Below are positions 1,209 through 16,322 of a DNA stretch of 43,727 nucleotides, one piece after another. The stretch comes from Thermoanaerobaculum sp. Its GTDB lineage: Bacteria; Acidobacteriota; Thermoanaerobaculia; Multivoradales; UBA5704. The stretch is taken from contig JAJKHS010000086.1 in NCBI GenBank assembly GCA_021154885.1, positions 1 to 43,727 of the forward strand, given 5' to 3'. The position numbers and the translations under genes are program-made. The notes under the pieces were generated by a model, which had not been told where the DNA came from, did not search any database, and was given only the letters and a program-made list of their open reading frames with translations. Each line of letters opens with the position of its first letter. Position 1 is the stretch's first letter.

Positions 1209-4200
1209 TCCAGAAAATCCCTGAGAGGACCAACCAACCGCTCGACCTGGTCACTTACCTGCTCCGGCCGGACAAGGGCTATGTGATCGGAAACACCTTC
1301 ATCACACAATCACTTACCCCGCAGGGGTTCCTGTCCGAGCTCAACACCTACAGCGACCTCAATCCCCGGGTTGAGCACCTCGTCTCGCACATGTCCCTTC
1401 GCCTCGCTCCCGGAGAGCACCTCACCGACGAGCAGTTCCAGGTGATCGCGGCCGATTACCTGAGAGGTCTTGGCTATGGCGACTGCCCGTATTTCGTGGT
1501 TCGCCATACCGACGCCAATTCCGAGCACATCCACATCGTGGTCTCCCGGATCGCTCGTGACGGACACTGCGTTTCAGACTCTTTTGAGCGGATGCGCGGA
1601 GAGAAACTGGTTCGCCAGTTCGAGCGTCAATACGGACTCAGGCAGGTTCCTTCAAGCGACGCATCCAACCGACAGTCGCTGACTCGCGGGGAGCTTGCCC
1701 AGGCCCTGCGCACCCAGGAGCCAAGCGCCCGGCAGGCCCTCCAAGAGATCGTGTCTCAAGCCGCCCGAGAAGCCCAGGACTTTCCTGACTTCGTCGAGCG
1801 CCTGAAGGCCGAGGACGTCTTTCTGCTCGTTCACCTCGATCGCATGGGACGACTCCACGGGTACAGCTATGAGCTTGAGGGCTACGCGATGAGCGGCACG
1901 CAGCTCGGCCGCGGCTTCACCCTTCGGGGAATTGAGCAAGGGTATGGCATCCTGCCGCAGCCCGAAGCCCACGCTGACCTCCTGGCTCGCATCGCGCGAC
2001 CTTCGGAATTCGCGGGGGAACCTTCGGCAGAGATCTCCGGGACCTCAGGCGACCCCCTGGATCAACTCCGAGTCGCCGTGCGAGACGCCCTTACCGCCGC
2101 CAGTACCTTCGATGACTTCGCAGATCGCCTCGCCACCACAGGGATACAGCTCGAGCTTCAACCCGACAGCCTCGGACGGCCCCACGGTCTCATCTATGCG
2201 ACGAACGATCATCGTGTCAGCGCCAGCACCTTGGACAAGGACTTCACGCTCGGAGCACTGAAGCGCCGAGGTCTCGTTGCGAGCGAGAAGAGTGATTCAC
2301 CCGACGATGCGCCAGACTCGATTCCCGCTCCCTCTCGATCGCGGGATGATACCGCCCACGAGCTCCTGCGCATCGTTGACCAAGTCGCTGCCACCTCCGC
2401 CGACTTCCGAACCTTTCGTGACGAGATGCTGAGCTTCGGCGTGCGTCTGGAGGTTCACTACAGTCAGGTGGGAAAGCCGAGCGGACTTACCTATCATCTG
2501 GACAGATTTCGCTGGGCAGGAAGTGACCTGGGTACCGCCTACACTCTGCGAGGGCTCAAGAACACCCGAGGCCTCGCGCCAGAGCCCGACCCGGCTTCTC
2601 TGCGAGCGGCGCAGGAAGCTCTCGCGACCCTTCTACGCAAGCACGCCGGCCAAGCCGTAACCTTCGAAGATCTCCAGGCCGCTTGCGCAGCCGAGGGCAT
2701 CACACTGCGCCTCTACCTGAGCTCTGAAAAGGCGGTCGGAATCGGCTACACCTACAAGGGCCAATACTTCAAGGCGCGATCTCTCGACAACGACTTTACC
2801 CTGGTGGGGCTCCGGGAGACGTTTCACCTCGTCCCGGACCTCAAGATCCCCGAGACCCGTAAGACCGCCGTTGAGCTCCAGGCAACCTCAGAGGATGAAG
2901 ATGCAATGCACAGAGTGCGCCTACGAGTCCCCTCCCATCCCCACCTGCGCGAGGCCAGCCGCCAAGAGCTCACCGCCATCGCCCATCAGGCCGCCCGGCC
3001 CGGCTCGCCCCCCACCTTCACCCAATTCGGCGAGGCTCTCGCGGCCCAGGGCGTCGACCTTCGTCTCTACACCAGGGAGGGCGTGCCCGTGGGCGTTTCG
3101 TATCGCTACAAGGGCGAGACCTTTGCCGCCCGAGCTCTCGGGCCGGAATTCACGCTACGTGGCCTGCGAACCCACTTCGAGATCCCCATCGCGGATACCG
3201 ACCGTGACTACGTCAAAAGCATCTCGACGGAGTCCACCCGCGACACCCCGCCGCCCGACGACACCGAGGTTCGCAATACCCTGACACCGGTGATCCTGAC
3301 CGTCGCCGCGAGCTCAGAGGACGCCAGCGAGTTCCTGGCGCTGCTTGAAGAGCAGGGTATCGGCCTGCGCCTGTACCTCACTGCCGAGGGCCAACCAAGG
3401 CGTCTCGCCTACGAATACGACCAGATCTTCTACACCCCGAAACAACTCGGAGCCGAGGTGGACCTGCCCAATCTCGTCCGCCAGTACGGTTTGAGGTTCG
3501 ACCCCAGAGACGATCGCCCTGTCTTCGAGGCGTGCGGGGTGCCTCTGGCAAAAAATGCGACCGTGACCCGCACCGACTTCGTGCCCTATGTAGGCGAGGC
3601 CGTGGCGGCGGCCGCGGCCGATGCGCCTGACCTGCCCCGATTCATCGAGAACCTCAATCGAGCCGCGATCAAGCTCCATCTCCTGACCCCGGCCAACGAG
3701 CCCTCGAAGATCGTCGGGATCACCTACGAGCATAAAGACGTCTTCGTCTCGGCGCGCTCGTTAGGGCCCGAATACACCTTTGGCGGTCTTCAGAGCCACT
3801 TCGGCGTCACCATCGATCTCCTCCGCGACGCGGACCTGGTGCGTGACCTCTCGCGGGCTCTGCCCGAAACTCCACCGGCTGACCCCAGAGACGCCTGGGA
3901 AGAGATCCGTGACCGCCTGACTCTGGTCGCCACTGAAGCCGACGATTTCGTGACCTATGTGGCTCGCCTCGAAGAATCCGGCATTCATCCCATCGTGCGC
4001 GTCGACGACGCGGACCGCATGGTCGGGATCACCTACCGCGTCGCCGGGCGAGAGCTCCGCGATCAGCAGCTCGGCCCGGACTTCACCCCCGCCGGACTCC
4101 ACCAGGCGTATGGCCTCGCGCCGCAGGCGTCGGACCGGGAGCGGCTCGGCCCCAACGTCATTCGCGAGGAGGAATGGACCCGTATCCTCGCCGGTCGCCT

Positions 4201-6040
4201 GGAGGTCGCCACCGGCCAGGCTGGGGCAGTCCAGCGGTATGCTGCGCAGAGCCTGCGCCGCGATCCTGTCCAGGCGCTGCGGACCGTCGCCAACGCGCAG
4301 TATCTGTTGAGTGCCGCCGTCAATCCGCGCCTCGCCGTCCGGGCCGCGATGACTCACCTGCCCGCCGGCCGCCTGCTCAACGACGCACTGTCTTTCGCTG
4401 CCGCCTTCCGCTCCCCGGTCGCCGCTACCGTCTTTGGTCTAAGAATGGCGTCCAGGGGCTTCGCCGCCGCGGCCCGAGCTCGCCAACCGGAGATTCCCGG
4501 CTTTGACGCCGTCGCGCGCCAGGTCCTGGGGACCTTCCTCGCCGCCGCCGGGCAAGGGGCTCCCTCCGCCGCCGTCTTCGCCCATCGACTCCGCCTTGCC
4601 GGCATCGAGCCCCAACTCGTGATGGAGGCTTCCCGGCCAACGCTGTACTACCAACTCGCCGACCGCTTGATCCCGGCCGGTGACCTCGGAGAGAACTTCA
4701 CCCTGGCGGCACTCGCCCGCCAATACGGAGGAGACCATGCAACCACCGCTGCCGACCTCGACCCCCACTGGCGCACCGACCTTTCCCACTCCAACGCCAC
4801 CGAGCGGCGATCCCCTTCCCTCGCTGATCGGTCACCTCTCGCAGCTCCTTCGTCAGTTGGAGACGCCGCCGCAGCTCCAGCCCGGAGAGTTGAAGAACCT
4901 GATGGAGCTCCTGCGCGCCCTTCATCGCCAGAACACCGCCTTGATCTCGCGGCCCCGGACGACTGTGCCGTGGCCCCAACTGGTGATCCTCACCTCGCTG
5001 CCGGTCCTCGCAGTGCTTCTGATCCTGACCTTCCTGCGTCCGAGCTGGCTCGTGCCGCAGCCGAACCTCATCCAGGTGCTCGAACAACAGCATCGATCGT
5101 CGACGCTGCCACCGAGCCACCTGCGGTCGACACCGAAACCGTGAGACGACAGATGGACGCCCTGCGCTGCGGCCGGTTCGATCTGCGAGTTGACATGCCA
5201 GGTGCGCGCCCCGCCTTCCATCGAGGGCTCAGCGAGGAGCAAGTCGCCGCTTCAATCCCGCAGATCTGCCATGACATGAGCGCGGGTGCCACAATCGGCA
5301 TTCGTCCCTCGGCAGACCCGGGCGTTCAACTCCTACGCGATCTCGCCCCGGAACAGATTGCGCAGGCCTCCCGGCTGGGCTTCGAGCCGGCCTTGACCGT
5401 TGAGACCTCGCCGGGCCGGTTCGATGTCTGGATCCGCCACCTCGCCCCGGGCGCCGAGCCTCCGCCTCCCGAGATTCTTAACTATGCGAGGCGAGGGTTG
5501 CGTATGGAGTACGGACTGCCCTCGGCGCTCAAGGATGGCGCCTATGGACGGCTGGCCGGCATCCCGGGAGAACAGTTCACCCCCCGTCTCGACCTTAGAG
5601 CAGGCTCGACGTACGGCCGCGCTCACGAGTACATTCACCTCTTGGCCGACCATCGGGTCGAAGCACAGGCCACGCTTCATGCGGGGCTGGCGCGACTCAA
5701 CCTTCCCACGCCCCATGACTTTCACCAACAACACCCAACCCTCTCACGCCGCGAAAGCGATCTGCTGTGGGCGCAGCGAGCCCACGAAAGCCGTCTTCCA
5801 GCTCATCAGGTCTTGAGTGCCCTGGCGGCTGGCCGGGAGAGAGCGCACGAACCGCAAAGCGCACTGCGCTACGCCTCGAATCTCTACTCGGTGATGCTGC
5901 GCGGTGCCGAGCGTCTTGGCCCCGCCGCCGCCCAGGCAGCCACTCTGCGCGCCCTCTCGACGGCCACCGGCGCCCCGATCATGCTCTTGCGTTTAGCGCT
6001 CGGCGTAGCCCGGCCGCTCCTGCGGGTCTTCCGTCCCTAG
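1205..6040 (+). CDS. mobA: relaxase-primase fusion (MobA-RepB type) with tandem repeats
   Basis: A 1611-residue protein starting at a GTG overlapping the mobC stop. Residues 1-150 are a MOBP/VirD2-like relaxase: a candidate catalytic Tyr in LVTYLLRP (about residue 18), motif II around SHMSLRLAPGE, and the metal-binding histidine motif HTDANSEHIHIVVSR (about 100-114). Residues about 178-980 hold eight copies of a roughly 75-residue unit spaced about 100 residues apart; its core is an LxxxGI segment, a GxxxGxxY strand and LGxxFTLxGL. A helical stretch (987-1095) and a ninth unit (1098-1176) follow. After a Pro/Ala-rich linker (1180-1312), residues 1313-1611 resemble the RepB-type primase (IGIRP..GVQLLRDL, ALTVETSPGRFDVWIRHL, GRLAGIPG). 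The usual DD pair appears as RD here, so catalysis is uncertain. The linker DNA also encodes another protein in a second frame. Confidence 0.85.
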   Translation: MIQKIPERTNQPLDLVTYLLRPDKGYVIGNTFITQSLTPQGFLSELNTYSDLNPRVEHLVSHMSLRLAPGEHLTDEQFQVIAADYLRGLGYGDCPYFVVRHTDANSEHIHIVVSRIARDGHCVSDSFERMRGEKLVRQFERQYGLRQVPSSDASNRQSLTRGELAQALRTQEPSARQALQEIVSQAAREAQDFPDFVERLKAEDVFLLVHLDRMGRLHGYSYELEGYAMSGTQLGRGFTLRGIEQGYGILPQPEAHADLLARIARPSEFAGEPSAEISGTSGDPLDQLRVAVRDALTAASTFDDFADRLATTGIQLELQPDSLGRPHGLIYATNDHRVSASTLDKDFTLGALKRRGLVASEKSDSPDDAPDSIPAPSRSRDDTAHELLRIVDQVAATSADFRTFRDEMLSFGVRLEVHYSQVGKPSGLTYHLDRFRWAGSDLGTAYTLRGLKNTRGLAPEPDPASLRAAQEALATLLRKHAGQAVTFEDLQAACAAEGITLRLYLSSEKAVGIGYTYKGQYFKARSLDNDFTLVGLRETFHLVPDLKIPETRKTAVELQATSEDEDAMHRVRLRVPSHPHLREASRQELTAIAHQAARPGSPPTFTQFGEALAAQGVDLRLYTREGVPVGVSYRYKGETFAARALGPEFTLRGLRTHFEIPIADTDRDYVKSISTESTRDTPPPDDTEVRNTLTPVILTVAASSEDASEFLALLEEQGIGLRLYLTAEGQPRRLAYEYDQIFYTPKQLGAEVDLPNLVRQYGLRFDPRDDRPVFEACGVPLAKNATVTRTDFVPYVGEAVAAAAADAPDLPRFIENLNRAAIKLHLLTPANEPSKIVGITYEHKDVFVSARSLGPEYTFGGLQSHFGVTIDLLRDADLVRDLSRALPETPPADPRDAWEEIRDRLTLVATEADDFVTYVARLEESGIHPIVRVDDADRMVGITYRVAGRELRDQQLGPDFTPAGLHQAYGLAPQASDRERLGPNVIREEEWTRILAGRLEVATGQAGAVQRYAAQSLRRDPVQALRTVANAQYLLSAAVNPRLAVRAAMTHLPAGRLLNDALSFAAAFRSPVAATVFGLRMASRGFAAAARARQPEIPGFDAVARQVLGTFLAAAGQGAPSAAVFAHRLRLAGIEPQLVMEASRPTLYYQLADRLIPAGDLGENFTLAALARQYGGDHATTAADLDPHWRTDLSHSNATERRSPSLADRSPLAAPSSVGDAAAAPARRVEEPDGAPARPSSPEHRLDLAAPDDCAVAPTGDPHLAAGPRSASDPDLPASELARAAAEPHPGARTTASIVDAATEPPAVDTETVRRQMDALRCGRFDLRVDMPGARPAFHRGLSEEQVAASIPQICHDMSAGATIGIRPSADPGVQLLRDLAPEQIAQASRLGFEPALTVETSPGRFDVWIRHLAPGAEPPPPEILNYARRGLRMEYGLPSALKDGAYGRLAGIPGEQFTPRLDLRAGSTYGRAHEYIHLLADHRVEAQATLHAGLARLNLPTPHDFHQQHPTLSRRESDLLWAQRAHESRLPAHQVLSALAAGRERAHEPQSALRYASNLYSVMLRGAERLGPAAAQAATLRALSTATGAPIMLLRLALGVARPLLRVFRP
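4737..5144 (+). CDS. mobB: MobB-like membrane protein encoded inside the relaxase gene
   Basis: A 135-residue ORF in a different frame from the relaxase-primase gene, lying over its low-complexity linker. Its ATG has a strong Shine-Dalgarno (GGAGGAG at 4727-4733, three bases before the ATG). Residues 1-35 are Pro/Thr-rich, 35-75 form an amphipathic helical region (LIGHLSQLLRQLE.. and LKNLMELLRALHRQ), and about 85-105 form one hydrophobic membrane segment (LVILTSLPVLAVLLILTFL). The stop TGA overlaps an in-frame internal GTG of the relaxase gene (GTGA, 5141-5144). In RSF1010/R1162, MobB is likewise encoded within mobA in another frame, spans the membrane, and aids relaxase delivery to the secretion channel. 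Position, overlap and topology match that arrangement; sequence homology cannot be judged here. Confidence 0.72.
   Translation: MQPPLPTSTPTGAPTFPTPTPPSGDPLPSLIGHLSQLLRQLETPPQLQPGELKNLMELLRALHRQNTALISRPRTTVPWPQLVILTSLPVLAVLLILTFLRPSWLVPQPNLIQVLEQQHRSSTLPPSHLRSTPKP
5141..6040 (+). CDS. repB': RepB'-like primase from an internal start of the relaxase gene
   Basis: An internal GTG in the relaxase-primase frame (codon 1313) overlaps the stop of the embedded mobB-like gene as GTGA, the same coupling used at 1205. Initiation here would yield a separate 299-residue primase, close to the 323-residue RepB' of RSF1010, which is also made from an internal start of mobA-repB. Motifs seen are IGIRPSADPGVQLLRDLAPEQ (an altered DDL site), ETSPGRFDVWIRH (the TSPGN-type motif) and AYGRLAGIPG. 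Such primases start complementary-strand synthesis at single-strand initiation sites. Separate production is an inference from the overlap. Confidence 0.55.
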   Translation: MRRQMDALRCGRFDLRVDMPGARPAFHRGLSEEQVAASIPQICHDMSAGATIGIRPSADPGVQLLRDLAPEQIAQASRLGFEPALTVETSPGRFDVWIRHLAPGAEPPPPEILNYARRGLRMEYGLPSALKDGAYGRLAGIPGEQFTPRLDLRAGSTYGRAHEYIHLLADHRVEAQATLHAGLARLNLPTPHDFHQQHPTLSRRESDLLWAQRAHESRLPAHQVLSALAAGRERAHEPQSALRYASNLYSVMLRGAERLGPAAAQAATLRALSTATGAPIMLLRLALGVARPLLRVFRP

Positions 6041-6111: not shown

Positions 6112-6142
6112 CTATCTATGGCAATCCCTTGATTGCTGATAG
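6112..6142 (+). promoter_or_regulatory. hairpin in the mobA-traF intergenic region
   Basis: Nested inverted repeats: GCAATC-CCTT-GATTGC (6121-6136) flanked by CTATC (6112-6116) and GATAG (6138-6142). There is no T tract, so a regulator site or weak terminator between the mobilization and transfer operons is possible. It lies 26 bases before operator site B. Confidence 0.3.
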
Positions 6143-6167
6143 GAGTGTGCCAGCGGGCCGTTTTGCA

Positions 6168-6195
6168 GAATAACTATTCCGCCTGTAAGCTATTC
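6168..6195 (+). promoter_or_regulatory. operator site B before traF
   Basis: GAATAACT (6168-6175), 8 bases, then TGTAAGCTATTC (6184-6195): the most symmetrical copy of the motif. The motif ends three bases before the traF ATG at 6199, leaving no room for a Shine-Dalgarno sequence. A -35-like TTGCAG is at 6163-6168. If the right half contains the -10, the transcript would be leaderless or nearly so. Confidence 0.65.
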
Positions 6196-6198
6196 TCC

Positions 6199-6690
6199 AT
6201 GCGCCGTGTCTCTTGGCTCCTTGCCCTCCTTTTTGCATTGTCTTTCCTGCGGTGGAACGCCAGCCCTTCGATGCCGCGCGGACTCTACCTCCTCGTCCCT
6301 TTCCCTCCCACGTTGGGGGAGATGGTGATGGCCTGTCCACCTCCTGAGGAAGCTTGTCTCGCGGTGGAGCGCCACTACCTCGCACGGGGTGGTCCTTGCG
6401 CCTGCGGCACCGCCCTTCTGGTCAAGTACATCGCGGGCGCTCCAGGAGATCGCATCACGTTCGATCGAGCCGGCATCCGAGTCAACGGCATTCCCCTACC
6501 CAGCTCCGCCCCACTCGACGCCGATTCCAGAGGACGGCCCATGACACCCGCTACGGGCTCCTTCCAACTCGCTCCCCACCACTTCTGGCTCACCGGTCTT
6601 GATGCCCGAAGCTGGGACTCCCGTTATTTCGGCCCCATTCCTGCCAGCTCCATCCATGGAGTCGTGCGCCCGCTTTGGGTTCGCCGATGA
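6199..6690 (+). CDS. traF: TraF-like conjugative signal peptidase (S26 family)
   Basis: A 163-residue membrane protease. An N-terminal segment (WLLALLFALSFLRW) precedes the serine motif SPSMPRGLYLL; the catalytic Lys lies in VKYIAGAPGD; DSRYFGPIPASSI is the conserved C-terminal box. In IncP systems TraF cleaves and cyclises the TrbC pilin. The ATG at 6199 is chosen because a longer frame upstream would read through operator site B, and the signal-anchor segment follows directly. The stop overlaps the traG start (ATGA). It is first in the traF-traG operon and is probably controlled by site B. Confidence 0.85.
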   Translation: MRRVSWLLALLFALSFLRWNASPSMPRGLYLLVPFPPTLGEMVMACPPPEEACLAVERHYLARGGPCACGTALLVKYIAGAPGDRITFDRAGIRVNGIPLPSSAPLDADSRGRPMTPATGSFQLAPHHFWLTGLDARSWDSRYFGPIPASSIHGVVRPLWVRR

Positions 6691-8708
6691 GCAGCCAGGA
6701 CCTCTACCAACTCCCCGCCGGCACACCTCGGGCACCGGCCCGCCGCGCCCTGGCAGGAACCGTTCTCGTGCTCTTGGCGTGGCTGGGTTTCCTTACCCAG
6801 CGCTTCGCCTCGGCGCTCCTCTTCCATCCCCTGCTCGGTCCGCCAGCACTTCCTGCGCTTCCGAAAGCCTTCGCCCTTCCGTGCTGTGCCGCGTTGATCG
6901 GGCTTTCAGCCACGCTTTTTGCTAAAAGGACAGCTCTGCCTGCTCTCCTCATCGCTCTCTTGGCCTTCCTGTTCCTCGGTCTCGCGCAAGGCCCGGTCTA
7001 CTTACCCGTACAAATCCTCGTCTGGCTCGTCCGGTTTCACTCCTCGAAAGCCGTCGCCTCCGAGGTGGCCAGTGCCGAGCGCTTGGCGGCTCTCGGCAGC
7101 ATAGCGGTGATCCTCGGGGGCATCGCCGCTCAAGCCGTCATTTCCCTGCGACTGAAGCTCCCCGATCTCCACGGCTCGGCCCGTTTTGCCAACCCCGCGG
7201 AAGTCAAGAGCTCTGGGCTGCTTTTCCAACCCTCCCGTCCAGAGACTCTCGCGGGAGCTGAAGGCGTCTACCTCGGCACGATCGGGACGATCGGGAGGGT
7301 CCGGCCGGTCGGGAATTCCGGCGCCACCTCCGTTCTCGTCAACCTCGCCGACCGACACACTTTTGTGCTGGCTCCCAATCGTGCGGGCAAGGGCGTCGGC
7401 ATGGTGATCCCGACGCTTCTCTCCTGGACGGGATCGACCGTGATTCACGATATGAAGGGAGAGAACTTCCACTTGACCGCAGGCTGGCGCCAGCAGGAGC
7501 TGGGCCACAAGGTCTATCTCTTCGACCCCACGGATCCGGACCATTCCGCCTGCATCAACCCCCTCGAGGAGATTCGGCTCGGTGACTCCGAGATGGGGGA
7601 CATCGGAAATCTCGTACAAGTCGCCGTCGACCCCCAGGGCAAGGGGGCACAAGAAGATCTCAACCACTGGCAGAAGGGCGCCGCTCAGCTCATCACCGCG
7701 ATCGTCCTTCATACCCTTTACGCCGAGGAGGTCAAGACGCTTGCGACCTGCGAGCGGCTCCTCTCTTCAACCAACACCTGCGACCTGCTCACTCGAATCC
7801 ACAACACGGCCCACACACCTGAAGGCCCCCACCCCATCGTCCAAGACCTTGCCGGTTTCTTTCTCGCCTTGGACCCCGAGGAGCTCTCCGGCTATGTCTC
7901 AACCGCCGTCAATTGCCTCATGGTCTTCCGCGATCCGATGATCAGCCGAGTCACGTCCCGCTCCGACTTCCACTGGCGCGACCTGCTCGAGGATTCCGTC
8001 CCCACCTCCATCTATCTCGCCATCCCAGCCGGAGACCAGGCGCGAATCCGGCCTCTCACGCGGATGCTGGTCAACCAACTCTGCTATCGGCTGGTGCAAA
8101 GAATGAACTTTACTCAGAACCGCCATCACCCGGTGCTGATCCTTCTCGACGAATTTCGCTCGCTCGGCCGCCTGCCGGCCCTCGAAGAGTCCCTCGCCTT
8201 CTTCGCAGGCTACGGCGTGCGCGCTTGCATCGTCTGCCAGGACTTGGAGCAGCTCCACAAGCTCTACGGCGAGCGAGAAGAGATCACCGTCCATTGTCAC
8301 TACAAGGTCGTGTTGACGCCAACCGGTCTTAAGACCGCCGAATACATCTCTCAATTGTGTGGCACGACGACGGTCCATCACCAGCACCTCTCGCGTCGCG
8401 TCGGTGGTCTCTTCGGCTCGCAACCTTCAACCGAAGCCCCCAACGAAATCCGCCGGCCACTGCTGACTCCGGACGAGGTCCTGCGCCTGCCCGGAGATCA
8501 AGCCCTCATCTTTCAGCATGGCGGACGCCCCATCCGCGCCACACGCATCAAGTACTACGAAGACCCCGAGTTTGCAAGGCGCGCGAGCCTGCCCCCGCCA
8601 GCCTTCACCCTACCACCTCCCCCGCAACTACCCCGGCGCCAACCCACCACCGCCTCCGGTCCGTCCCTGTCCGCCACCCTTCCGCGGCGCCCGCGCAAAA
8701 GAAATTGA
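6687..8708 (+). CDS. traG: type IV coupling protein, VirD4/TraG ATPase
   Basis: A 673-residue inner-membrane ATPase that links the relaxosome to the type IV secretion channel. Hydrophobic N-terminal segments (about residues 24-45, 75-105 and 135-155) anchor it. The Walker A region is NRAGKGVGMVIPTLL, followed by VIHDMKGENF, the VirD4-type signature. Walker B is HHPVLILLDEFRSLGRLP, followed by EESLAFFAGYGVRACIVCQD. The C terminus is Pro/Arg-rich. The ATG at 6687 overlaps the traF stop; a TTG at 6675 gives a slightly longer frame but lacks this coupling. About 48 bases separate it from trbB, filled by promoter/operator C. Confidence 0.93.
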   Translation: MSSQDLYQLPAGTPRAPARRALAGTVLVLLAWLGFLTQRFASALLFHPLLGPPALPALPKAFALPCCAALIGLSATLFAKRTALPALLIALLAFLFLGLAQGPVYLPVQILVWLVRFHSSKAVASEVASAERLAALGSIAVILGGIAAQAVISLRLKLPDLHGSARFANPAEVKSSGLLFQPSRPETLAGAEGVYLGTIGTIGRVRPVGNSGATSVLVNLADRHTFVLAPNRAGKGVGMVIPTLLSWTGSTVIHDMKGENFHLTAGWRQQELGHKVYLFDPTDPDHSACINPLEEIRLGDSEMGDIGNLVQVAVDPQGKGAQEDLNHWQKGAAQLITAIVLHTLYAEEVKTLATCERLLSSTNTCDLLTRIHNTAHTPEGPHPIVQDLAGFFLALDPEELSGYVSTAVNCLMVFRDPMISRVTSRSDFHWRDLLEDSVPTSIYLAIPAGDQARIRPLTRMLVNQLCYRLVQRMNFTQNRHHPVLILLDEFRSLGRLPALEESLAFFAGYGVRACIVCQDLEQLHKLYGEREEITVHCHYKVVLTPTGLKTAEYISQLCGTTTVHHQHLSRRVGGLFGSQPSTEAPNEIRRPLLTPDEVLRLPGDQALIFQHGGRPIRATRIKYYEDPEFARRASLPPPAFTLPPPPQLPRRQPTTASGPSLSATLPRRPRKRN

Positions 8709-8756: not shown

Positions 8757-9728
8757 ATGCCGGCTCATCGCCTCCCCGAAGCCTTTCTCCACGAGCTTCT
8801 TGAAAGAGAGCTCGGTCCGATCCTCCTAGAATCCTTGACCGATCCAGGGGTGGTCGAGATCCTGGTCAATCCCGATCGGATGATCTGGGAGGACCGCTTC
8901 GGGAAGGGCCTGGTCTGCCTCTCAGAGCAGGCAGACCCGCTGGCCCTTGAATCCCTCACCTCGACAATCGCCTCGCTGCGCGAGACGACTTTCACCGACA
9001 CGAATCCCGAGCTGTCGACCTTCCTTGATGTCTCGGGCATCGGCCGCTGCCGCTTCACCGCCGCCCGGCCTCCCATTGTCGAAGGCATCGCCGTTTCAAT
9101 CCGCAAGCACGAGGCCGGCCATGTCTATCGCCTGGACCCCGACTTCCGGGACAAGGGCTTCATCTCCCACGCCCATACGGGAATCCTTAAAACCGCGATC
9201 AACGATCGCAACAACATCATTGTTTGCGGCGGCCCGGGGGCCGGTAAGACCGCGCTTGCCAACGCCATCCTTCTCGAGATCGCGGACCCCACAACCCGCA
9301 TCCTCCTGCTCGAGGACGTCCCTGAGCTTCACTGCCCCGGACTCCATACCGTGTCTCTGCGCAAGGCGCCCACGCACGACCTCGAAGCTCTCCTTCGCCT
9401 CACAGTGCGCTTTCGTCCCTCGCGGATCTGCCTTGGCGAGCTGCGGGGCAACGAGACCCTCACCCTGTTGAGCGCCTGGAACACCGACACGCGGGGAGGC
9501 ATCGCCACCCTCCATGCCAACAGCAGCCGATCCGCCCTCGACCGACTCGAACTCTTTGTGCGGCTCGCCAGCAACTCCGTCGCCGAAGTCGCCCGCACCC
9601 TGATCGGTCAAGCCGTGCATCTCATCGTCGCTGTTCACCGCGGCCAGCAAGGCCCCCACGTGGCCGAGCTCCTCCGCGTCGAAGGTTACGACTCGCAGGC
9701 CGGTGATTACCGCCTGGCCTATGAATGA
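8757..9728 (+). CDS. trbB: VirB11/TrbB secretion ATPase
   Basis: A 323-residue hexameric traffic ATPase of the conjugation channel. Walker A is CGGPGAGKTALANAIL; LLLEDVPEL is the Asp box; RICLGELRGNETL is Walker B; ATLHANSS is the histidine box. The N-terminal domain (VEILVNPDRMIWEDRFG) is typical of TrbB. The ATG at 8757 follows promoter/operator C by six bases and no Shine-Dalgarno sequence is visible. First gene of the trb operon; trbC follows with a 24-base gap. Confidence 0.94.
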   Translation: MPAHRLPEAFLHELLERELGPILLESLTDPGVVEILVNPDRMIWEDRFGKGLVCLSEQADPLALESLTSTIASLRETTFTDTNPELSTFLDVSGIGRCRFTAARPPIVEGIAVSIRKHEAGHVYRLDPDFRDKGFISHAHTGILKTAINDRNNIIVCGGPGAGKTALANAILLEIADPTTRILLLEDVPELHCPGLHTVSLRKAPTHDLEALLRLTVRFRPSRICLGELRGNETLTLLSAWNTDTRGGIATLHANSSRSALDRLELFVRLASNSVAEVARTLIGQAVHLIVAVHRGQQGPHVAELLRVEGYDSQAGDYRLAYE

Positions 9729-9752
9729 GAACAGAAAGGAGAGTTGGTCTCA

Positions 9753-10067
9753 ATGAATCGCCCCCTGGTGGTCCTCTTCGCCCTTCTCGCCCTCCTCGCG
9801 CTCGCAGGACCGGCCGCGGCGACCGTTGCCGGGGGACCGGACCTGCCCTGGAACAGTCCCCTCAAGGACTTGACCGACAACCTTCAGGGACCGGTCGCCA
9901 CCTACTCTTCGATCGCCGCCATGGTCGTCGGCGCCATCATGTGGGGCTGGGGGCAAAGCCACGGCGAGGGCACCCAACGCCTGGCCAAACTGATCTTTGC
10001 CATCCCCTGCGCCGTCTTTGCCGTCAAGATCCTGAGCAGTCTCGGCATGATGGGAGCGATCCTCTGA
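9753..10067 (+). CDS. trbC: TrbC/VirB2 pilin
   Basis: A 104-residue pilin precursor: an N-terminal signal segment (VVLFALLALLALAGPAAA), a short polar region, and two hydrophobic segments (SIAAMVVGAIMWGWG and AKLIFAIPCAVFAVKILSSL). It forms the conjugative pilus after processing, in IncP by TraF. The ATG at 9753 has AAGGAGAG nine bases upstream; the TTG at 9744 is too close to that site. The stop overlaps the trbD start (TGATG). Confidence 0.88.
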   Translation: MNRPLVVLFALLALLALAGPAAATVAGGPDLPWNSPLKDLTDNLQGPVATYSSIAAMVVGAIMWGWGQSHGEGTQRLAKLIFAIPCAVFAVKILSSLGMMGAIL

Positions 10068-10387
10068 TGGAACGGGTCGAGCGTCGCCGGGACTTGGCGG
10101 AAACCCCCGTCCATCCGTCCCTCACCCGTCCCATCCTCATGGGCGGCATCGAAAAGGACCTCGCGATGTTGGAGATCCTTTTGGGCGGCGCCATCCTCGC
10201 TCTCGCCGGTCCCACGCTCGTGACGTTCGCGATCCTCGCCGTGATCGTCGTCGCCATCAACCCCTGGCTGCTCGCTCCTCTCTCCGAGCGCGATCCGCAG
10301 GCCTTCGCCATCTACCTGCGACACATCCAGTACCTGCCGAGCTATCCAGCGGCGAGCACTCACCATACGCCCCTCTCCCACCGGTAA
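10067..10387 (+). CDS. trbD: TrbD/VirB3 channel protein
   Basis: A 106-residue inner-membrane protein with the family opening HPSLTRPILMGGIEKDLAMLE. It has two hydrophobic stretches (LLGGAILALAGPTLVTFAI and LAVIVVAINPWLLAPL) and the SERDPQAFAIYLRHIQY tail. VirB3-type proteins work with the VirB4 ATPase encoded next. The ATG overlaps the trbC stop by one base. The frame is open far upstream across trbC, but that extension is only antisense-free noise. Confidence 0.88.
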   Translation: MERVERRRDLAETPVHPSLTRPILMGGIEKDLAMLEILLGGAILALAGPTLVTFAILAVIVVAINPWLLAPLSERDPQAFAIYLRHIQYLPSYPAASTHHTPLSHR

Positions 10388-10390
10388 GCC

Positions 10391-12835
10391 ATGCTGATTC
10401 AAGAATTCTCGCGGCGGGCTCAGAGCGTCCAGGACCTGATGCTCTGGGCAGCTCTCGTCGCTCCCGGAGTCGTCCTCAACAAAGACGGCTCTCTGACGAC
10501 CGGATGGACTTTCCAGGGACCGGACCTCAACTCCGCCACGGCCGAGGAGCTCCAGGCCCTCACCCAGCAGACCAACCGCGTCTTGATGGGCCTCGACGAG
10601 TCCTGGATCCTTCACTGCGACGTGCTGCGCTCGCCGGCCTCTGCGCAGCCGGATGCCGATGCCTTCCGCCACCCGGTCGCCCAGGCGATCGACCGCGAAC
10701 GCCGGTGGCAAAACGCCGCCACCCTCTATCAGACCCAATCCGTCCTACTCCTCACCTATCGGCCGGAAGGCGAGCGTGCCTCGCGCCTCAAATCTCTCTT
10801 CGTCGCCGGCAACGAGCTGACGACAGAGCGGGGGGACGACCACCTGGAGGAGCTCCACGACCGGCTCGCCGAGATCGAGCAGGGGCTCTCTCACATCCTG
10901 CGCCTCAAGCGGCTCTCCGACGAGAGGCTCCTCACCCACCTCCATTCGATCCTGACCGGGCTTGATCATCCCGTCCGGGTCCCCTCGACGCCTCTTCTCC
11001 TCGACGGCCTCCTCGCCTCCCAGGACCTCGAGGGAGTCCTCCAACCGAAGATCGGCGAGCAATACGTCGCCGTCGTCTCGTTGACGGGCCTGCCCCGCGC
11101 CACCACCCCCGGCCTTTTAGATCAGGTGGTAAACCTTCCTTTTCCCCTGCGGCTCAACACTCGCTTCATTCCCCTCAACTTCGCCGAGGCCGATCGGGTC
11201 CTCGCGGGCTATCGCCGGGCGTGGATGCGCAAACGGCGGGGGATGCGCTGGCTCTTCGCCGGCCTCTTCGGCAACCCGGCCAGCCGCGACGACCAGGACG
11301 TTTCCGTCGACCATGACAGCGCCGACATGATGGCTGACGTCGATCTCGCAACCGCCGAGCTCAACGCCCAGGCGGTGCGCTTCGGCTTTGTCACTCTCAC
11401 CGTCGTCCTGCACCACCACGAACCGTCAGAGCTCGCCTCCCGCGCTCGCACCGTCGCCTCGCTCATCCAAGCCCTCGGTGTTCCCGCGCGCGTCGAAAGA
11501 GACAACACCCTGGACGCTTTTTTGGGCTCGATCGCCCCGGCCAGTGCCAACAACGTTCGCCGGCCGCTCATCCATACCGCCAATCTTGCCGACCTTCTGC
11601 CGCTGACCACGGTCTGGCAAGGTAAAACCGTCAATCCCAGCCCCTACTCCCCTCCGGGAGGCTCCCCGGCTCTGCTCTGGACCTCAACCGAGGGCTCAAC
11701 CGCCTTCTGCTTCAACCTTCACGCCGCAAGCGACGTCGGACACTCCCTGATCCTCGGCCCCACGGGCAGCGGCAAGAGCACCATCGTCGCTCTGCTCATG
11801 GCGCAGTGGTTCCGCTACGAAGGCGCCCGCGTCATCGCTTTCGACAAGGGCGGCTCCTTCCTTCCCTTGACCTACGCCTTGGGCGGGGCCCACTACGACC
11901 TCGCCGCCCAAGGCTCCGAGCTTGCCCTCTGTCCGCTCGCCCGCGTCGACGATCTGCATGAACGCTCGGAGTGCCAAGAGTGGCTCGAGGACTTCTTCGA
12001 GCTCAACAAGGTCGAGATCAACCCGGGACGAAGGATCGCCATCGCCAACGCTCTGGCCCTCCTTGCCTCTCAGGACGACCGCACCCTGACCAACTTCCGC
12101 TTGAAAGTCCAGGACCAGGAGCTGCGCGACGCGCTCTTGCCCTACACCAGCGCCGGCAGCATCGGAGCGACCCTGCTCGACTCTCCGGCGGACAACCTGA
12201 CAGATGCCTCCCTTCTGACCTTTGAGATGGTGCGACTGATGGAGCAGGGATCCCGCTTCGTCGTCCCCACCCTGCTCTACCTGTTCCGCAGACTGACCCA
12301 ACGATTTACCTCTGGCGCGCCGACGCTCCTCGTCCTCGACGAGGGGTGGACCTTCCTCGACCACGAAAAGTTCGCCCACAGAATCCGTCTCTGGCTCAAA
12401 GAGCTTCGCAAGTACAACGTCAGTGTGCTCTTCGCGACGCAGAGCCTGGCGGACTTCGCGGCCACAGCGCTCGCCCAGGTGCTGGTCGAGAGCACGGAGA
12501 CGAAAGTCTTTCTCCCCAATCCCCAAGCTGCCAACGAGGCGGTCGCACCTCTTTACCGCTCCTTGGGCCTCAATCCGCGCCAGTTGGCCTTGATCGCCGG
12601 CGCCCGCCCCAAGAGCGACTACTACGTCTCCTGCAGCGAGGGCAACCGCCTCATGCGTTTAGAGCTCGGCCCCTTGACCTTGAGCTTCTGCGGCGCCGGC
12701 TCGCGGCAGGAGCTCGCCAAGGTCCGCGAGCTCGCCGCCATCCACGGCCGGCTCTGGCCCGCCTTCTGGCTCGAGAGCCGGAGCCTTTCAACCTGGGCCG
12801 AGGCCCTTCGGCCCCAACTGGAGAACCGTCCATGA
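10391..12835 (+). CDS. trbE: VirB4/TrbE ATPase
   Basis: An 814-residue ATPase that powers pilus assembly and transfer. The N-terminal CagE/TrbE/VirB domain is seen around LLTYRPEGERASRLKSLF and YVAVVSLTGLP. Walker A is LILGPTGSGKSTIVALLMAQ; the family motif RVIAFDKGGSF follows; Walker B is TLLVLDEGWTFLDHEKF; VLFATQSLADF and the C-terminal ARPKSDYYV complete the pattern. The length is normal for TrbE. It starts three bases after trbD and overlaps trbJ by four bases (ATGA). Confidence 0.95.
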   Translation: MLIQEFSRRAQSVQDLMLWAALVAPGVVLNKDGSLTTGWTFQGPDLNSATAEELQALTQQTNRVLMGLDESWILHCDVLRSPASAQPDADAFRHPVAQAIDRERRWQNAATLYQTQSVLLLTYRPEGERASRLKSLFVAGNELTTERGDDHLEELHDRLAEIEQGLSHILRLKRLSDERLLTHLHSILTGLDHPVRVPSTPLLLDGLLASQDLEGVLQPKIGEQYVAVVSLTGLPRATTPGLLDQVVNLPFPLRLNTRFIPLNFAEADRVLAGYRRAWMRKRRGMRWLFAGLFGNPASRDDQDVSVDHDSADMMADVDLATAELNAQAVRFGFVTLTVVLHHHEPSELASRARTVASLIQALGVPARVERDNTLDAFLGSIAPASANNVRRPLIHTANLADLLPLTTVWQGKTVNPSPYSPPGGSPALLWTSTEGSTAFCFNLHAASDVGHSLILGPTGSGKSTIVALLMAQWFRYEGARVIAFDKGGSFLPLTYALGGAHYDLAAQGSELALCPLARVDDLHERSECQEWLEDFFELNKVEINPGRRIAIANALALLASQDDRTLTNFRLKVQDQELRDALLPYTSAGSIGATLLDSPADNLTDASLLTFEMVRLMEQGSRFVVPTLLYLFRRLTQRFTSGAPTLLVLDEGWTFLDHEKFAHRIRLWLKELRKYNVSVLFATQSLADFAATALAQVLVESTETKVFLPNPQAANEAVAPLYRSLGLNPRQLALIAGARPKSDYYVSCSEGNRLMRLELGPLTLSFCGAGSRQELAKVRELAAIHGRLWPAFWLESRSLSTWAEALRPQLENRP

Positions 12836-13629
12836 CCAAGAAACGGCTGTTGCCTCTGCTGCTCATCGGCCTGCTGCTCTTCATGCCCTCGACGGCCAAT
12901 GCGACCGGGATCCCCGTCGTCGACATCCTGGCTTGGATCCAGCGTTTTTCCATCATCTACAACCAGTACCAGCAGCTCGTCAACCAGTATCAGCACATCC
13001 AGGTCGCCATCACCGAAGCCCGGGCCGCCGTCAAGCAGCTCGAGGCCTACCGAGACGGTCATTACTCGGACTTAAACGGCCTCCTGGGAGCTGTCGACCA
13101 GATCTTCAACAGCTACTCCCAGATCCAAAGCAACTTGGGCTATCTGAAGATCGGCGTCGAAGACATCTACCGGCAGAACTTTCCCGGCGCCGACGTCTAC
13201 GCAACCGATCCGAACGTCAATGTGCCCGACAGCTACGTCCAGAGAGTCGGCCGCGTCAATGAGACCCTCGCCCTTCTGTTCAAGGGACTCAACAGGATCA
13301 CCTGGAACGACACCCACAGCCAGATCGAGCTGGCCGAATTCGCGGCCGCCTCGCAAGGGGCGGACACCGCGCTCAAAGCGGCCCAGGCCAACGCGATGCT
13401 CACCAGCCTGGGGGTGACCGAACAGCAGAAGACCCTGCAGGCGACGATGATGACGGCCAACGTCGTTGCCCTGGGGGTGGCGATGCAGGTCCAGGACCAG
13501 GCCACGGCCCAGGCGGCCCGCTCCCGCTGGCTCAACTCTCAGACGCCTCCTCCCCCGGTCGGCTTCGATCCCTCGGCCTCCGGCTACACCGGCCTGCCCT
13601 CTTCTGCGCCCACCTCGCTCTTCTTTTGA
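12832..13629 (+). CDS. trbJ: TrbJ/VirB5-like channel protein
   Basis: A 265-residue exported protein with a cleavable signal (LLPLLLIGLLLFMPSTANA). The mature part is helical and begins with the TrbJ-typical PVVDILAWIQRFSIIYNQYQ and a paired YQQLVNQYQHIQVA segment. A second conserved block is AAQANAMLTSLGVTEQQKTLQ. The TrbJ/VirB5 family contributes to the pilus tip and mating-pair formation. Its ATG overlaps the trbE stop. Confidence 0.88.
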   Translation: MTKKRLLPLLLIGLLLFMPSTANATGIPVVDILAWIQRFSIIYNQYQQLVNQYQHIQVAITEARAAVKQLEAYRDGHYSDLNGLLGAVDQIFNSYSQIQSNLGYLKIGVEDIYRQNFPGADVYATDPNVNVPDSYVQRVGRVNETLALLFKGLNRITWNDTHSQIELAEFAAASQGADTALKAAQANAMLTSLGVTEQQKTLQATMMTANVVALGVAMQVQDQATAQAARSRWLNSQTPPPPVGFDPSASGYTGLPSSAPTSLFF

Positions 13630-13640
13630 GGCCGCCGCCG

Positions 13641-14027
13641 ATGAGCTTTCTCAAAACGCTTCTCTCGAAACCTCACTTCGTGCCGGCCTTGGCGATTCTT
13701 GCCGCCGTGGCCGCTCTTCTTCTCGTCGGCTACCAGGCCACCCATACTCGCCCACCCTCGCCGATCGAAATCCTCCACCAGGACACCCTTGACAAGACCT
13801 ACGACCCTCGCTACTGGACGGCTCTCGCTCGCGAGCAGCCGGAGCTCTACCAGACCTCCCTCCTCTATTGCATCGCTCATAAGGCGAGGCCGAACTGCGA
13901 TGCGCTGCGCCGGCAGGCATTCACCACCTCGCTCGAACATTCAGCCACCGCTGCACCACCACCTCTCGAGCCTGCGGCGGTGCCTGCCCAGCCCACGCCG
14001 AAGACTCCCGCCGCGAGGCCACGTTGA
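13641..14027 (+). CDS. small membrane protein in the trbK position
   Basis: A 128-residue protein with one N-terminal membrane segment (FVPALAILAAVAALLLVGY), a middle domain (DTLDKTYDPRYWTALAREQP), a pair of cysteines (LLYCIAHKARPNCDALR) and an Ala/Pro-rich tail. The C-x8-PNC-x-A spacing recalls TrbK/EexN entry-exclusion proteins, encoded at this place between trbJ and trbL in IncP-like clusters. There is no lipobox, unlike RP4 TrbK, so the function is inferred from position. The ATG at 13641 is preferred over an upstream TTG. The stop overlaps the trbL start (TGATG). Confidence 0.6.
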   Translation: MSFLKTLLSKPHFVPALAILAAVAALLLVGYQATHTRPPSPIEILHQDTLDKTYDPRYWTALAREQPELYQTSLLYCIAHKARPNCDALRRQAFTTSLEHSATAAPPPLEPAAVPAQPTPKTPAARPR

Positions 14028-14851
14028 TGGACCTCGGACTCCTGAACACCGTTCTTGACGCCTTCGACACCGCCACCGGTACCTGGGTCGCGACGCTTCA
14101 ACCTCTCGCCCTGGGCCTCTTCGCGGCATTGGGCACGATGGAATTCATCTGGACCTTCGTGCGTGCCGCCATCTCGGCTCGCGTCTCTGCCGCCGACCTG
14201 TTTGAGCTCGGGTTCCGAAAGCTTCTCTACCTGGCGTTTCTCAATTGGTTGATCCTCAAGAGCCCGGCCGCGTTCGGACTGATCATCTCGACTTTCCAGA
14301 AAGCCGGCGGCCAGGCCGCCGGCATCACGGCGCTACGTCCCAGCGCCTATCTCAACACCGGCGTCAGCCTGTCGATGCACCTCTGGTCCGGATGGAACGC
14401 GGCCGGGTTCTTCTTCGACCCCTTCGGGCGCGAGCTTGCGGTCTACGGCACGCTCGCCTGCATCGTCATCTTCGGCCTCATGGCGACCTCGCTCATGGTC
14501 ACGCTGATCGAGTCCTACATCATCATCAGCGGTGGCGCTCAACTGCTCCTCGGCTTCGCCGCCAGCCGTTGGACCTTCCCTTTAGCGGAGGGTGGCGTCA
14601 CGGCGGTCTTCAGAATCGCCGTCAAGCTCCTGGTCACCTACCTCGTGACCGGTGTCATCGCCGGCCTGACCTTTCAATGGGCGGCGACACTTCAGACCAA
14701 CTCCTTCGTCGACATCTTTCAATTCCTGACGTTTCTTGGCACCGCGTTTACGGCGGCGATTCTCCAGTGGACTCTGCCCAGCCGGCTCACCAACTACCTC
14801 GTTCCGCCGTCCTTTCACATCCGCTTGAGCCCGGTTGTCGGTGACAACTAA
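14027..14851 (+). CDS. trbL: TrbL/VirB6 polytopic channel protein
   Basis: A 274-residue inner-membrane protein with several hydrophobic segments: LQPLALGLFAALGTMEFIWT near the N terminus, LACIVIFGLMATSLMVTLIE, YIIISGGAQLLLGFAASRWT (the VirB6/TrbL signature region), VKLLVTYLVTGVIAGLTFQW, and a C-terminal FLTFLGTAFTAAILQWTLP. It forms part of the inner-membrane pore. At 274 residues it is much shorter than usual TrbL (about 400-550) and lacks the long hydrophilic tail. Starts by TGATG overlap with the preceding gene; 29 bases separate it from trbF. Confidence 0.88.
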   Translation: MDLGLLNTVLDAFDTATGTWVATLQPLALGLFAALGTMEFIWTFVRAAISARVSAADLFELGFRKLLYLAFLNWLILKSPAAFGLIISTFQKAGGQAAGITALRPSAYLNTGVSLSMHLWSGWNAAGFFFDPFGRELAVYGTLACIVIFGLMATSLMVTLIESYIIISGGAQLLLGFAASRWTFPLAEGGVTAVFRIAVKLLVTYLVTGVIAGLTFQWAATLQTNSFVDIFQFLTFLGTAFTAAILQWTLPSRLTNYLVPPSFHIRLSPVVGDN

Positions 14852-14880
14852 AAGCCCCACTCCGTCTTCTCTTCAACGCC

Positions 14881-15567
14881 ATGCTCAAGGTCCACACCCA
14901 TCACCTCGAAGGACGGTCCGCCCACGACAATCGGTGGGAGCGACTCGCCGCAAGCCGCGAGAACTACCGCATCCTCGCGGCCATCCTGCTCGCTCTCGAC
15001 GTCTTCCTCGCCGTCCTCAACTGGCACCTCGCAACCCATGCCCAGATCGCCACCTATGTCGTCCAGGTGGATCGCTTCGGCCAAGCTCAGTCCGCCGGTC
15101 CGATCGATCCCAAAGCCATCGCCACGGACGCGCTGTGGCGGTGGACTCTCTCCCTTCTAATCCGTAATCTGCGCACCCTCGATCAGGACCCCAACCTTTT
15201 GAAGATGCATCTGGACGACGGTCTCTCTTTCCTTCGCGGCCACGCCGCCACCATCGTCCAGGACTATTTCCGCGAGCAAAACCCCTTCGTCCTTGCGAAA
15301 TACTCCACGGTCCTCGTCCAGCAGCCCATCACCGTGCTGCGGCGGGGCAAGAACATCTGGCAAATCGAATGGACCGAAACCCACCGCGACCTTGGCGGCC
15401 GAACCGTCGAGGAGCGCTGGCAGGCTCTCGCCACCACCATGACCGATCCTCCCCAGAAGAGGGCCGGCCAAGGAGACGACCAACTCAAACGAGGAGCCTT
15501 AAATCCTCTCGGGCTCTTTGTCAGCGACCTCGATTGGACCCCCGTTGCTACCCAAAGGAGACCCTAA
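14881..15567 (+). CDS. trbF: TrbF/VirB8 channel protein
   Basis: A 228-residue bitopic protein: a short cytoplasmic N terminus with SAHDNRWERLAASRENYR, one membrane segment (ILAAILLALDVFLAVLNWHLA), and a periplasmic VirB8-fold domain with YVVQVDRFGQAQSAGPI and the family block IWQIEWTETHRDLGGRTVEE. NPLGLFVSDLDWT is the conserved end. VirB8 proteins nucleate channel assembly. No clear Shine-Dalgarno sequence is visible before the ATG. The stop overlaps the trbG start (TAATG). Confidence 0.9.
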   Translation: MLKVHTHHLEGRSAHDNRWERLAASRENYRILAAILLALDVFLAVLNWHLATHAQIATYVVQVDRFGQAQSAGPIDPKAIATDALWRWTLSLLIRNLRTLDQDPNLLKMHLDDGLSFLRGHAATIVQDYFREQNPFVLAKYSTVLVQQPITVLRRGKNIWQIEWTETHRDLGGRTVEERWQALATTMTDPPQKRAGQGDDQLKRGALNPLGLFVSDLDWTPVATQRRP

Positions 15568-16322
15568 TGATGCGATCCGTCACTCTGCTTGTCGCCGCAG
15601 TACTGCTCCCGGCCTGTCTTCTCGGACAGACCGCGGAGATCCCCTCCCCACCTCAAGTCAGCGCGAGCGTTTCATCCCCTGCGTCACCAGTTCCGGCCAA
15701 CCTCAACTGTCTGCCGGCCAGCCCCTGTGACATCGAGCTCGAGCCCGCGGAGAGCGTCAACGAGGTCATGGTGGCCGGCGGCAAGGACTGGAGCACCCAG
15801 GTCATTTCAACCGGCCTCAAGCCGAAGACCAGCCACGTGATCGTCTGGCCCGACGCTGCGGCCACGCCGGGCTCAACCGTCATCATCACCACGGATCGCC
15901 GCCTCTTGAGCTTGGGGCTTTCCAACGAGCGGAGCCGGGAAGCCAATCTCCACACCCGTCTCACGACCCCCGAGGGCAATGCCCTGCGCTTCAAACGTGA
16001 GCTCGACCCCACGCCAGGCGGCACCTACCTCGGCTCGGTCGATCCAAGGACCGTCAACATCGACTACTCGATTCCCCGCGGCAGGAACGCCCCGACCCTC
16101 GTCTTCGACGACGGCAACCATACCTACATCGGTTGGGCCGACCGCCGGCCCTCCCAGGCGCCGGTGATCTTCAGCATCGACGAGCAGGGGACCAACCTCC
16201 TCTCTCCCCACATCGCTCCGAGCGGCGCGCTCTACGTGGTGGACACCGTCGCCAAAAGAATCGAGCTCAAATTCGGTCCCAAAGACAACCTGACCGTCAC
16301 CAATAGGGCCTATGACCAATGA
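15567..16322 (+). CDS. trbG: TrbG/VirB9 outer-membrane channel protein
   Basis: A 251-residue exported protein: a signal segment (SVTLLVAAVLLPACLLG), a beta-rich N-terminal domain (VNEVMVAGGKDWSTQVI, HVIVWPDAAATPGSTVIITT), and the conserved C-terminal half with PTLVFDDGNHTYI, APVIFSIDEQG and LYVVDTVAKRIELKFG. It forms the outer ring of the core complex with TrbI. LPAC at about residues 17-20 resembles a lipobox, although Pro at -2 is unusual; lipidation would substitute for the missing separate VirB7/TrbH lipoprotein. AAAGGAG lies six bases before the ATG at 15567, and the stop overlaps trbI. Confidence 0.92.
   Translation: MMRSVTLLVAAVLLPACLLGQTAEIPSPPQVSASVSSPASPVPANLNCLPASPCDIELEPAESVNEVMVAGGKDWSTQVISTGLKPKTSHVIVWPDAAATPGSTVIITTDRRLLSLGLSNERSREANLHTRLTTPEGNALRFKRELDPTPGGTYLGSVDPRTVNIDYSIPRGRNAPTLVFDDGNHTYIGWADRRPSQAPVIFSIDEQGTNLLSPHIAPSGALYVVDTVAKRIELKFGPKDNLTVTNRAYDQ

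Follow-up and report, generated by a model that had tools for sequence, protein, structure and literature searches.

The DNA analysed here (the window: 43,727 nucleotides of contig JAJKHS010000086.1, forward strand, assembly GCA_021154885.1) comes from Thermoanaerobaculum sp., a member of the Acidobacteriota, and carries what appears from its gene content to be part of an integrative and conjugative element (ICE). The relaxase gene of this element, which encodes a MOBP relaxase with a C-terminal RepB-like domain, contains a second open reading frame (ORF) of 135 codons in its +1 frame, from an ATG at 4737 to a TGA at 5142-5144. The first-pass annotation had read this ORF as a mobB-like gene arranged as in RSF1010-type plasmids, and had located a 135-residue product, a GGAGGAG before the ATG, one membrane segment and a GTGA overlap at the stop; all of these coordinates proved correct (Table 1).

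A GGAGG in Shine-Dalgarno (SD) position precedes 18 of the 789 ATGs of the window, both strands counted, the nested ORF being among them, and the same SD stands before the NikA-like gene at 834. The SD and start of the nested ORF fall within the final codons of the last (m9) of nine repeated relaxase modules, as they do in the related Serratia (L007) and Plesiomonas (L008) plasmids. The product has a single membrane segment, predicted from hydropathy only, in its C-terminal half. No RNA structure was found at the nested start or at the GTG overlapping the nested stop (z -1.13 and -0.56).

Table 1. Features of the window, with the nested gene and its signals first.
Feature	Position	Strand	Basis or remark
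mobB-like gene, 135 amino acids (aa), +1 frame of relaxase	4737..5144	+	ORF, codon signature, resampling, UBA5704 comparison
Shine-Dalgarno GGAGGAG of the mobB-like ORF	4727-4733	+	sequence; count of ATGs with GGAGG
Predicted membrane segment of the mobB-like protein, LVILTSLPVLAVLLILTFL, RPSW directly after	4980..5036	+	hydropathy only
GTGA: mobB-like stop overlapping in-frame relaxase GTG	5141..5144	+	sequence; not conserved family-wide
RepB-like (archaeo-eukaryotic primase fold) domain without catalytic residues; candidate internal start 5141 or ATG 5153	5141..6040	+	
MOBP relaxase, nine tandem modules and C-terminal RepB-like domain, 1611 aa	1205..6040	+	Pfam
Nine copies (m1-m9) of 82-aa module	1712..4738	+	m9 = 4493-4738, ending at mobB start
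NikA/MobC-like relaxosome accessory protein, 124 aa	834..1208	+	Pfam NikA-like 5.3e-12
TraF-like signal peptidase S26	6142..6690	+	Pfam
Type IV coupling protein (TraG/VirD4-like), expected partner of the MobB-like protein	6687..8708	+	Pfam
trb/VirB-type channel: VirB11-type ATPase, VirB3, VirB4/TrbE, TrbL/VirB6, VirB8, CagX/VirB9, TrbI/VirB10	8757..17659	+	
Tyrosine integrase	41823..42905	-	adjoins tRNA-Lys (43010-43085, -)

In this G+C-rich gene open frames of such length are to be expected, so the length of the ORF alone proves nothing. The +1 frame stayed open in 1076 of 2000 synonymous resamplings of the region, an ATG-started frame at least as long arose in the +1 or +2 frame in 417 of 500 whole-gene resamplings, and the window holds 175 ORFs of 90 aa or more. 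These counts, and the absence of any match between the ORF and the Pfam, NCBIfam and PHROG models, are what one would expect if the overlapping ORF were a chance open frame that is not translated. The hydrophobic segment argues otherwise. Its Kyte-Doolittle mean of 2.78 over 19 residues is the highest of the 205 stop-to-stop segments of at least 100 aa in the window, and was attained in none of the 2000 regional and none of the 500 whole-gene synonymous resamplings. Codon usage points the same way: by codon position the G+C content of the overlap is.674/.504/.793 in the small frame, which resembles the genes of the element, and.793/.674/.504 in the relaxase frame. Of 40 intervals along the relaxase gene, just 2 had a higher codon likelihood in the +1 frame than in the relaxase frame under a model of the element's genes, and both (starts 4805 and 4925) lie inside the nested ORF. 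The overlap bears the coding signature of the small frame.

The sole near relative found, an element of Holophagales UBA5704 (G003/L055, DIHE01000067.1), has the same gene order. Between the two elements the small-frame proteins aligned locally with a score of 64, equalled by 3 of 2000 shuffles; the relaxase-frame linkers scored 55 (616 of 2000) and the third frame 74 (171 of 2000). The membrane segment together with the LRP(S/A)W that follows it (LRPxW) was equalled by none of 20000 shuffles, and the hydrophobic segment of the UBA5704 counterpart was attained in 18 of 2000 synonymous resamplings. Over the overlap the nearest relative conserves the small frame and not the relaxase frame. With this conservation, the switch of signature to the +1 frame, the strong SD and the recurrence of the arrangement in 15 family members, described below, an untranslated chance frame is very improbable.

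Scanning one genome per species (84,980 species) for the RepB-like domain yielded 48 loci, which are a sample because a single short peptide pattern was used. The RepB frame was at least 470 residues long in 12 of them, and 11 of these 12 had a +1 ORF with a membrane segment over the linker, a Devosia locus (L069) being the only long-frame locus that lacked it. No overlapping segment of at least 60 aa above a hydropathy of 1.6 was found in the other 36 loci (frames of at most 426 residues). The 11 scan loci, the window, two plasmids and an IncQ1 plasmid make up the 15 ORF-bearing members, and in 15 of 15 the nested ORF is in the +1 frame; these members are not all independent, because some are near-copies (the relaxase parts of L008 and L041 are identical). 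Altogether 15 of the 19 relaxase-RepB fusions read contain a nested ORF. Those without it are the Devosia locus, G010 and G024 (same order) and G344 (same phylum), the relaxase part of G344 scoring below the Pfam cut-off. A RepB alignment profile matched 5 of 148 genomes of the class and 15 of 396 of the phylum, the window's own included in each, and ORFs were read in six matching genomes besides the window (G003, G010, G024, G073, G344 and G477). The viral contigs gave no match to the relaxase.

The dual-frame constraint proposed as a check in the first-pass annotation was found in the family. Twelve genes were compared, 11 from Pseudomonadota records and L043 from a metagenome-assembled genome (MAG) labelled Kiritimatiellae; the set excludes the window and UBA5704, L034, L043 and L049 begin inside the gene, and L034 and L036 stop at the locus end. 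Over the pairs with an identity between.45 and.97 (63 of 66), the identity at four-fold third bases was.857 in the overlap versus.538 upstream and.497 downstream, whereas the residue identity of the relaxase frame fell to.549 in the overlap from.756 upstream and.708 downstream. By relaxase codon position the identities were.666/.776/.785 in the overlap versus.814/.855/.570 upstream. The constraint falls on the small frame, and the relaxase frame is there the linker that follows.

Several observations weigh against a mobB-like gene in the window, in addition to the frequency of long alternative frames and the four fusions without a nested ORF. At this locus the dual-coding comparison consists of one distant relative, and no relative close enough for a synonymous-rate test was found. 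The Pfam model Mobilization_B (PF17511), which gives 207.6 bits with the RSF1010-type MobB and 50.3 bits with the Serratia MobB, matched neither the window ORF nor the UBA5704 ORF at E up to 10. Among 524 segments, the best match (E 3.9e-4) to a profile built from 13 other MobBs, the RSF1010-type one included, was the UBA5704 ORF, but the window ORF was not among the listed matches of that profile. The window and UBA5704 ORFs found each other with a phmmer E of 0.8 in one direction and not among the matches listed in the other, and a weak probability of 55.6 was obtained when the two acidobacterial ORFs were compared, profile against profile, with the remaining MobBs. The link of the window ORF to MobB rests on place, frame and topology and on one intermediate. 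We call the ORF MobB-like on these grounds and not a member of the Pfam family, because Mobilization_B matches the Serratia and RSF1010-type MobBs and neither acidobacterial ORF.

The same facts could be accommodated by a genuine small membrane gene that is unrelated to MobB and came to lie in the linker by convergence. The window ORF has no sequence match to MobB, fusions without the ORF exist, and nested mob genes are contained in the relaxase genes of another group, the ColE1 type. Convergence would, however, have to account for homologous flanking domains on both sides, for the identical frame, and for the UBA5704 intermediate that the MobB profile found, and we regard it as unlikely. The annotated IncQ1 plasmid shows the same place and frame, with mobB (4564-4977) inside mobA (3816-5945) and repB' at 4974, in agreement with the RSF1010 comparison of the first-pass annotation. 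On balance we consider it likely that this acidobacterial ICE has a dual-coding relaxase gene, in which the +1 frame encodes a separately initiated, MobB-like small membrane protein and the RepB-like domain no longer primes.

The evidence on priming comes from the C-terminal domain. Pfam RepB_primase (PF16793) matched aa 1339-1450 (5e-06, 26.9 bits against a cut-off of 24.3), and in a sequence comparison of the C-terminal 299 residues with the PDB only RepB' of RSF1010 was matched (phmmer 3h25, 2.7e-10). A model of the domain, with a mean predicted local distance difference test score (pLDDT) of 74.4, superposed on 3h25 with a TM-score of.79 on target and a root-mean-square deviation of 2.8 over 182 columns; Foldseek matched this model, which was built from an alignment with RepB relatives, to 3h20 (8.9e-12). 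Asp77, Asp78 and Asp134 are named as the catalytic residues of RepB' in an excerpt of PMC4434180, and a Gln is placed in motif II of the RepB' family in an excerpt of PMC5862659. In the window the equivalents of the three aspartates are Arg, Asp and Pro; they are Pro-Gly-Thr in UBA5704 (G003), Arg-Asn-Glu in G010 and Arg-Gly-Pro in G024, and in all four proteins the motif-II Gln has become Asp. Both motif-I aspartates and the motif-II Gln are intact in all 20 other aligned rows, and Asp134 is aligned in 18 of them, with a gap in two. The C-terminal helical domain PF22448, which matches in the Serratia and RSF1010-type proteins, gave none in the window at E up to 1 and none in UBA5704 at E up to 10.

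Judged from the alignment and the model, the RepB-like domain keeps its fold and has lost catalytic residues in the window and in the three other fusions found in its class. The window domain is probably a vestigial primase. Because the equivalents of Asp77 and Asp134 are gone, as is the motif-II Gln, the primase domain of the first-pass annotation is unlikely to be active; a vestigial domain, or one that binds DNA or acts as a signal, is the more probable reading. Some points weaken this conclusion, both for the window and for its class. In the window the Asp78 equivalent is still present, and so is an Asp at residue 132, the conserved position that comes next; around Asp134, where G010 has a Glu, the alignment is gappy. 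Pfam RepB_primase did not match UBA5704 or the scanned part of G010; the assignment of both to RepB rests on matches to the window domain (2.1e-12 and 2.7e-4) and on the alignment profile; with profile values of 5.8e-7 for G010 and 4.0e-6 for G024, the assignment of these two is weaker.

RepB-type primases were also seen outside relaxase fusions. At four loci (L082, L083, L084 and L085), on trb-type plasmids of Comamonadaceae and of an acidobacterium, stand-alone genes of this type lie divergent beside a trbB-type ATPase gene, and the motif-I and motif-II residues are intact in L082, L084 and L085, the three loci included in the alignment.

The GTG at 5141 belongs to the relaxase frame; a product begun there would have 299 residues. 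In RSF1010-type plasmids the mobB stop likewise overlaps the repB' start, and the first-pass annotation had proposed a coupled internal primase start. Seven of the 15 members have an ATG or GTG overlapping the mobB stop (the window, UBA5704, Plesiomonas, Deefgea, two proteobacterial MAGs and the RSF1010-type plasmid), and the remaining 8 have ATAA or GTAA at that place. By domain alignment the GTGA lies at RepB' residue 10 in the window and at residue 34 in UBA5704, where a start would remove the first strand of the RepB fold. The 'TVTRRM' of UBA5704 had been a candidate for the same place as the window's 'TVRRQM' and was rejected by this alignment. Start/stop coupling was therefore rejected as a conserved trait: the loss of the GTGA in relatives, which the first-pass annotation would have taken as refuting its proposal, tells against the internal start across the family and leaves the overlapping gene untouched.

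The fullest equivalence to RSF1010 would have the GTGA at 5141 start a separate, active primase coupled to the translation of mobB. Such coupling would predict the lack of an SD before 5141, and none is present; the overlap in 7 of the 15 members includes the RSF1010-type plasmid; and the record of the Chitinibacter plasmid starts RepB at such an overlap, with the Serratia and Plesiomonas records starting it elsewhere. An excerpt of PMC2200642 describes the production of RSF1010 repB without mobB by means of an altered initiation region, which fits coupling in RSF1010. Against this stand the lost equivalents of Asp77, Asp134 and the motif-II Gln, the absence of an ATG or GTG at this place in 8 members, and the position of the UBA5704 GTGA, and we find the full equivalence extremely improbable. 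In the window, translation from 5141 could yield a RepB-like product of its own, though the family does not require one.

The relaxase itself matches Pfam Relaxase (PF03432) at aa 36-145 of its 1611 residues (3.9e-26) and contains RHTDANSEHIHI, which we take to be the HxD...HIH motif of MOBP relaxases. The TGA of the NikA/MobC-like gene overlaps its GTG start (GTGA at 1205). The modules sit between the relaxase domain and the linker, and the copies are 21-35% identical to the first; the Serratia and Plesiomonas proteins have one each, and UBA5704 has two, the second degenerate. Module m1 was modelled with a pLDDT of 94.8 as alpha-alpha-beta-beta-beta-alpha. The best PDB match to this fold had an E of 0.64 (Foldseek), a second fold comparison gave Z at most 3.8, and the match to Pfam TraI_middle was below the cut-off (12.3 bits); we have therefore left the module unnamed.

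To what relaxases the mobB and RepB parts are joined was evaluated with shuffled sequences. Between the RSF1010-type plasmid, which has a MOBQ relaxase, and the Serratia MOBP plasmid, the MobBs scored 140 (0 of 1000 shuffles) and the RepB parts 668 (0 of 300), whereas the relaxase parts scored 40 (81 of 500), with no detectable likeness. The mobB/RepB part has thus become joined to relaxases of two families, and its common descent is likely. The window relaxase part scored 409 with the Serratia MOBP relaxase and 52 with the MOBQ relaxase (0 of 300 shuffles each), so the two families may be distantly related. The relaxase tree, which does not contain G024, the second relaxase of the window's own genome, L043, L044 or L081, leaves its deep nodes unresolved and does not decide between one clade and several for the MOBP fusions of acidobacteria and proteobacteria. 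A tentative extension, which we hold to be somewhat doubtful, is that mobB and the RepB domain form a portable dual-coding cassette that was joined to MOBQ and MOBP relaxases, families that are distantly related at most, always in the same frame. The cassette would have entered self-transmissible ICEs of this acidobacterial class, where the primase died, the fold stayed, and the nested gene stayed in two of the four fusions found.

RSF1010/R1162 (IncQ1), represented by plasmid pWD1 (L081), shares with the window the relaxase-RepB fusion and a +1 mobB with one membrane segment over the linker. It differs in having a MOBQ relaxase (MobA_MobL), a divergent mobC, mobilizable status, repA/repC replication and the primase active site. 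Closer in relaxase type are the Serratia, Plesiomonas and Chitinibacter (L093) plasmids, in which an 'IncQ-type MobB' is annotated. Like the window they have a MOBP relaxase-RepB fusion, a NikA-like/MobC gene just upstream, a module before the linker, mobB in the +1 frame and then RepB. Their proteins, however, are ~720 aa long rather than 1611, with one module rather than nine, and the stretches read have no channel genes; also unlike the window, the primase active-site residues are intact in L007 and L008, and the L007 MobB matches Mobilization_B. The UBA5704 element resembles the window in its NikA-like ORF, its relaxase with a mobB-like ORF, its signal peptidase and coupling protein, the LRPxW after the membrane segment and the lost primase active site. 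It differs in the number of modules, in a mobB-like protein of 179 aa, in an identity of about 25%, and in a RepB_primase domain that Pfam does not detect. A literature search over titles and abstract openings, with few subscription journals covered, turned up no paper that describes a mobB nested in this way from Acidobacteriota or from an ICE. Such nesting is an old observation in RSF1010; in the window it occurs at a great distance from the usual hosts of that plasmid and beside a RepB-like domain that seems to be without its active site.

In the PLSDB gene tables of the Serratia, Plesiomonas and Chitinibacter plasmids, MobB and RepB have entries but the relaxase frame carries none for a relaxase, and each of the three is typed as non-mobilizable. 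The missing relaxase may be a gap in the tables, which describe themselves as incomplete, or an effect of the overlap on annotation. The expectation that automatic annotation would miss both genes thus fails for these plasmids, and holds for the window ORF in so far as it matches no family model.

Downstream of the relaxase gene lie the signal peptidase, coupling protein and channel genes, and also ParA and ParB. At the right end (41823-43727) the integrase adjoins tRNA-Lys, with purA beyond it. Taken by its gene content (an integrase at a tRNA, with relaxase, coupling protein and channel genes), the window is part of an ICE whose left end lies outside the contig, so that the trb-type channel and ICE context claimed at first were borne out. 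The contig has no terminal overlap that would mark it as circular. The 25-base 3' end of the tRNA-Lys was found on two other contigs of the genome (G000:C4 and G000:C19), where ARAGORN finds no tRNA, which suggests one or two elements at such sites. Behind the transfer genes, at 19504-24484, lies cargo in the form of large surface-type proteins (DUF11/CARDB repeats, PKD, weak S-layer homology).

If this reading is correct, the relaxase frame would give one long protein, in which a low-complexity linker joins the MOBP relaxase and its nine accessory modules to the RepB-fold domain. We infer that the small protein is translated, inserted into the membrane, bound to partners and functional. Its N-terminal part would be soluble, its second half would contain the one membrane segment, and it would work like the MobB of RSF1010. 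R1162 MobB stimulates transfer and relaxosome stability. As Parker and Meyer reportedly found in 2007, it is needed by two transport signals of the relaxase/primase. In the ICE the MobB-like protein would lie in the inner membrane next to the coupling protein, whose gene is a short way downstream, bind the relaxase, present the relaxase-DNA complex to the trb-type channel and so aid export. The RepB-like domain may persist as a part that binds DNA or signals transport and is recognised by the MobB-like protein. TraI of F/R1 offers an analogy, and we propose it only as such: a vestigial helicase domain serves there as a translocation signal, TSA (excerpt of PMC3912908), and a dead enzymatic domain of a relaxase is thus kept for single-stranded DNA binding and transport. 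Unlike the window domain it is a helicase and not a primase, and it belongs to a MOBF relaxase.

These results extend the RSF1010-type nested gene to an acidobacterial ICE that has its own channel. They suggest that a gene table may show MobB and RepB without the relaxase, or the relaxase without them, and that the pair of relaxase linker and mobB can outlast the activity of the neighbouring primase. Priming and delivery to the channel, which are entangled in RSF1010, are separated here, so that the roles of MobB and of the primase part could be tested in a natural variant. Should the cassette reading also be true, the lasting job of the cassette would be the presentation of the relaxase to the channel, and not priming.

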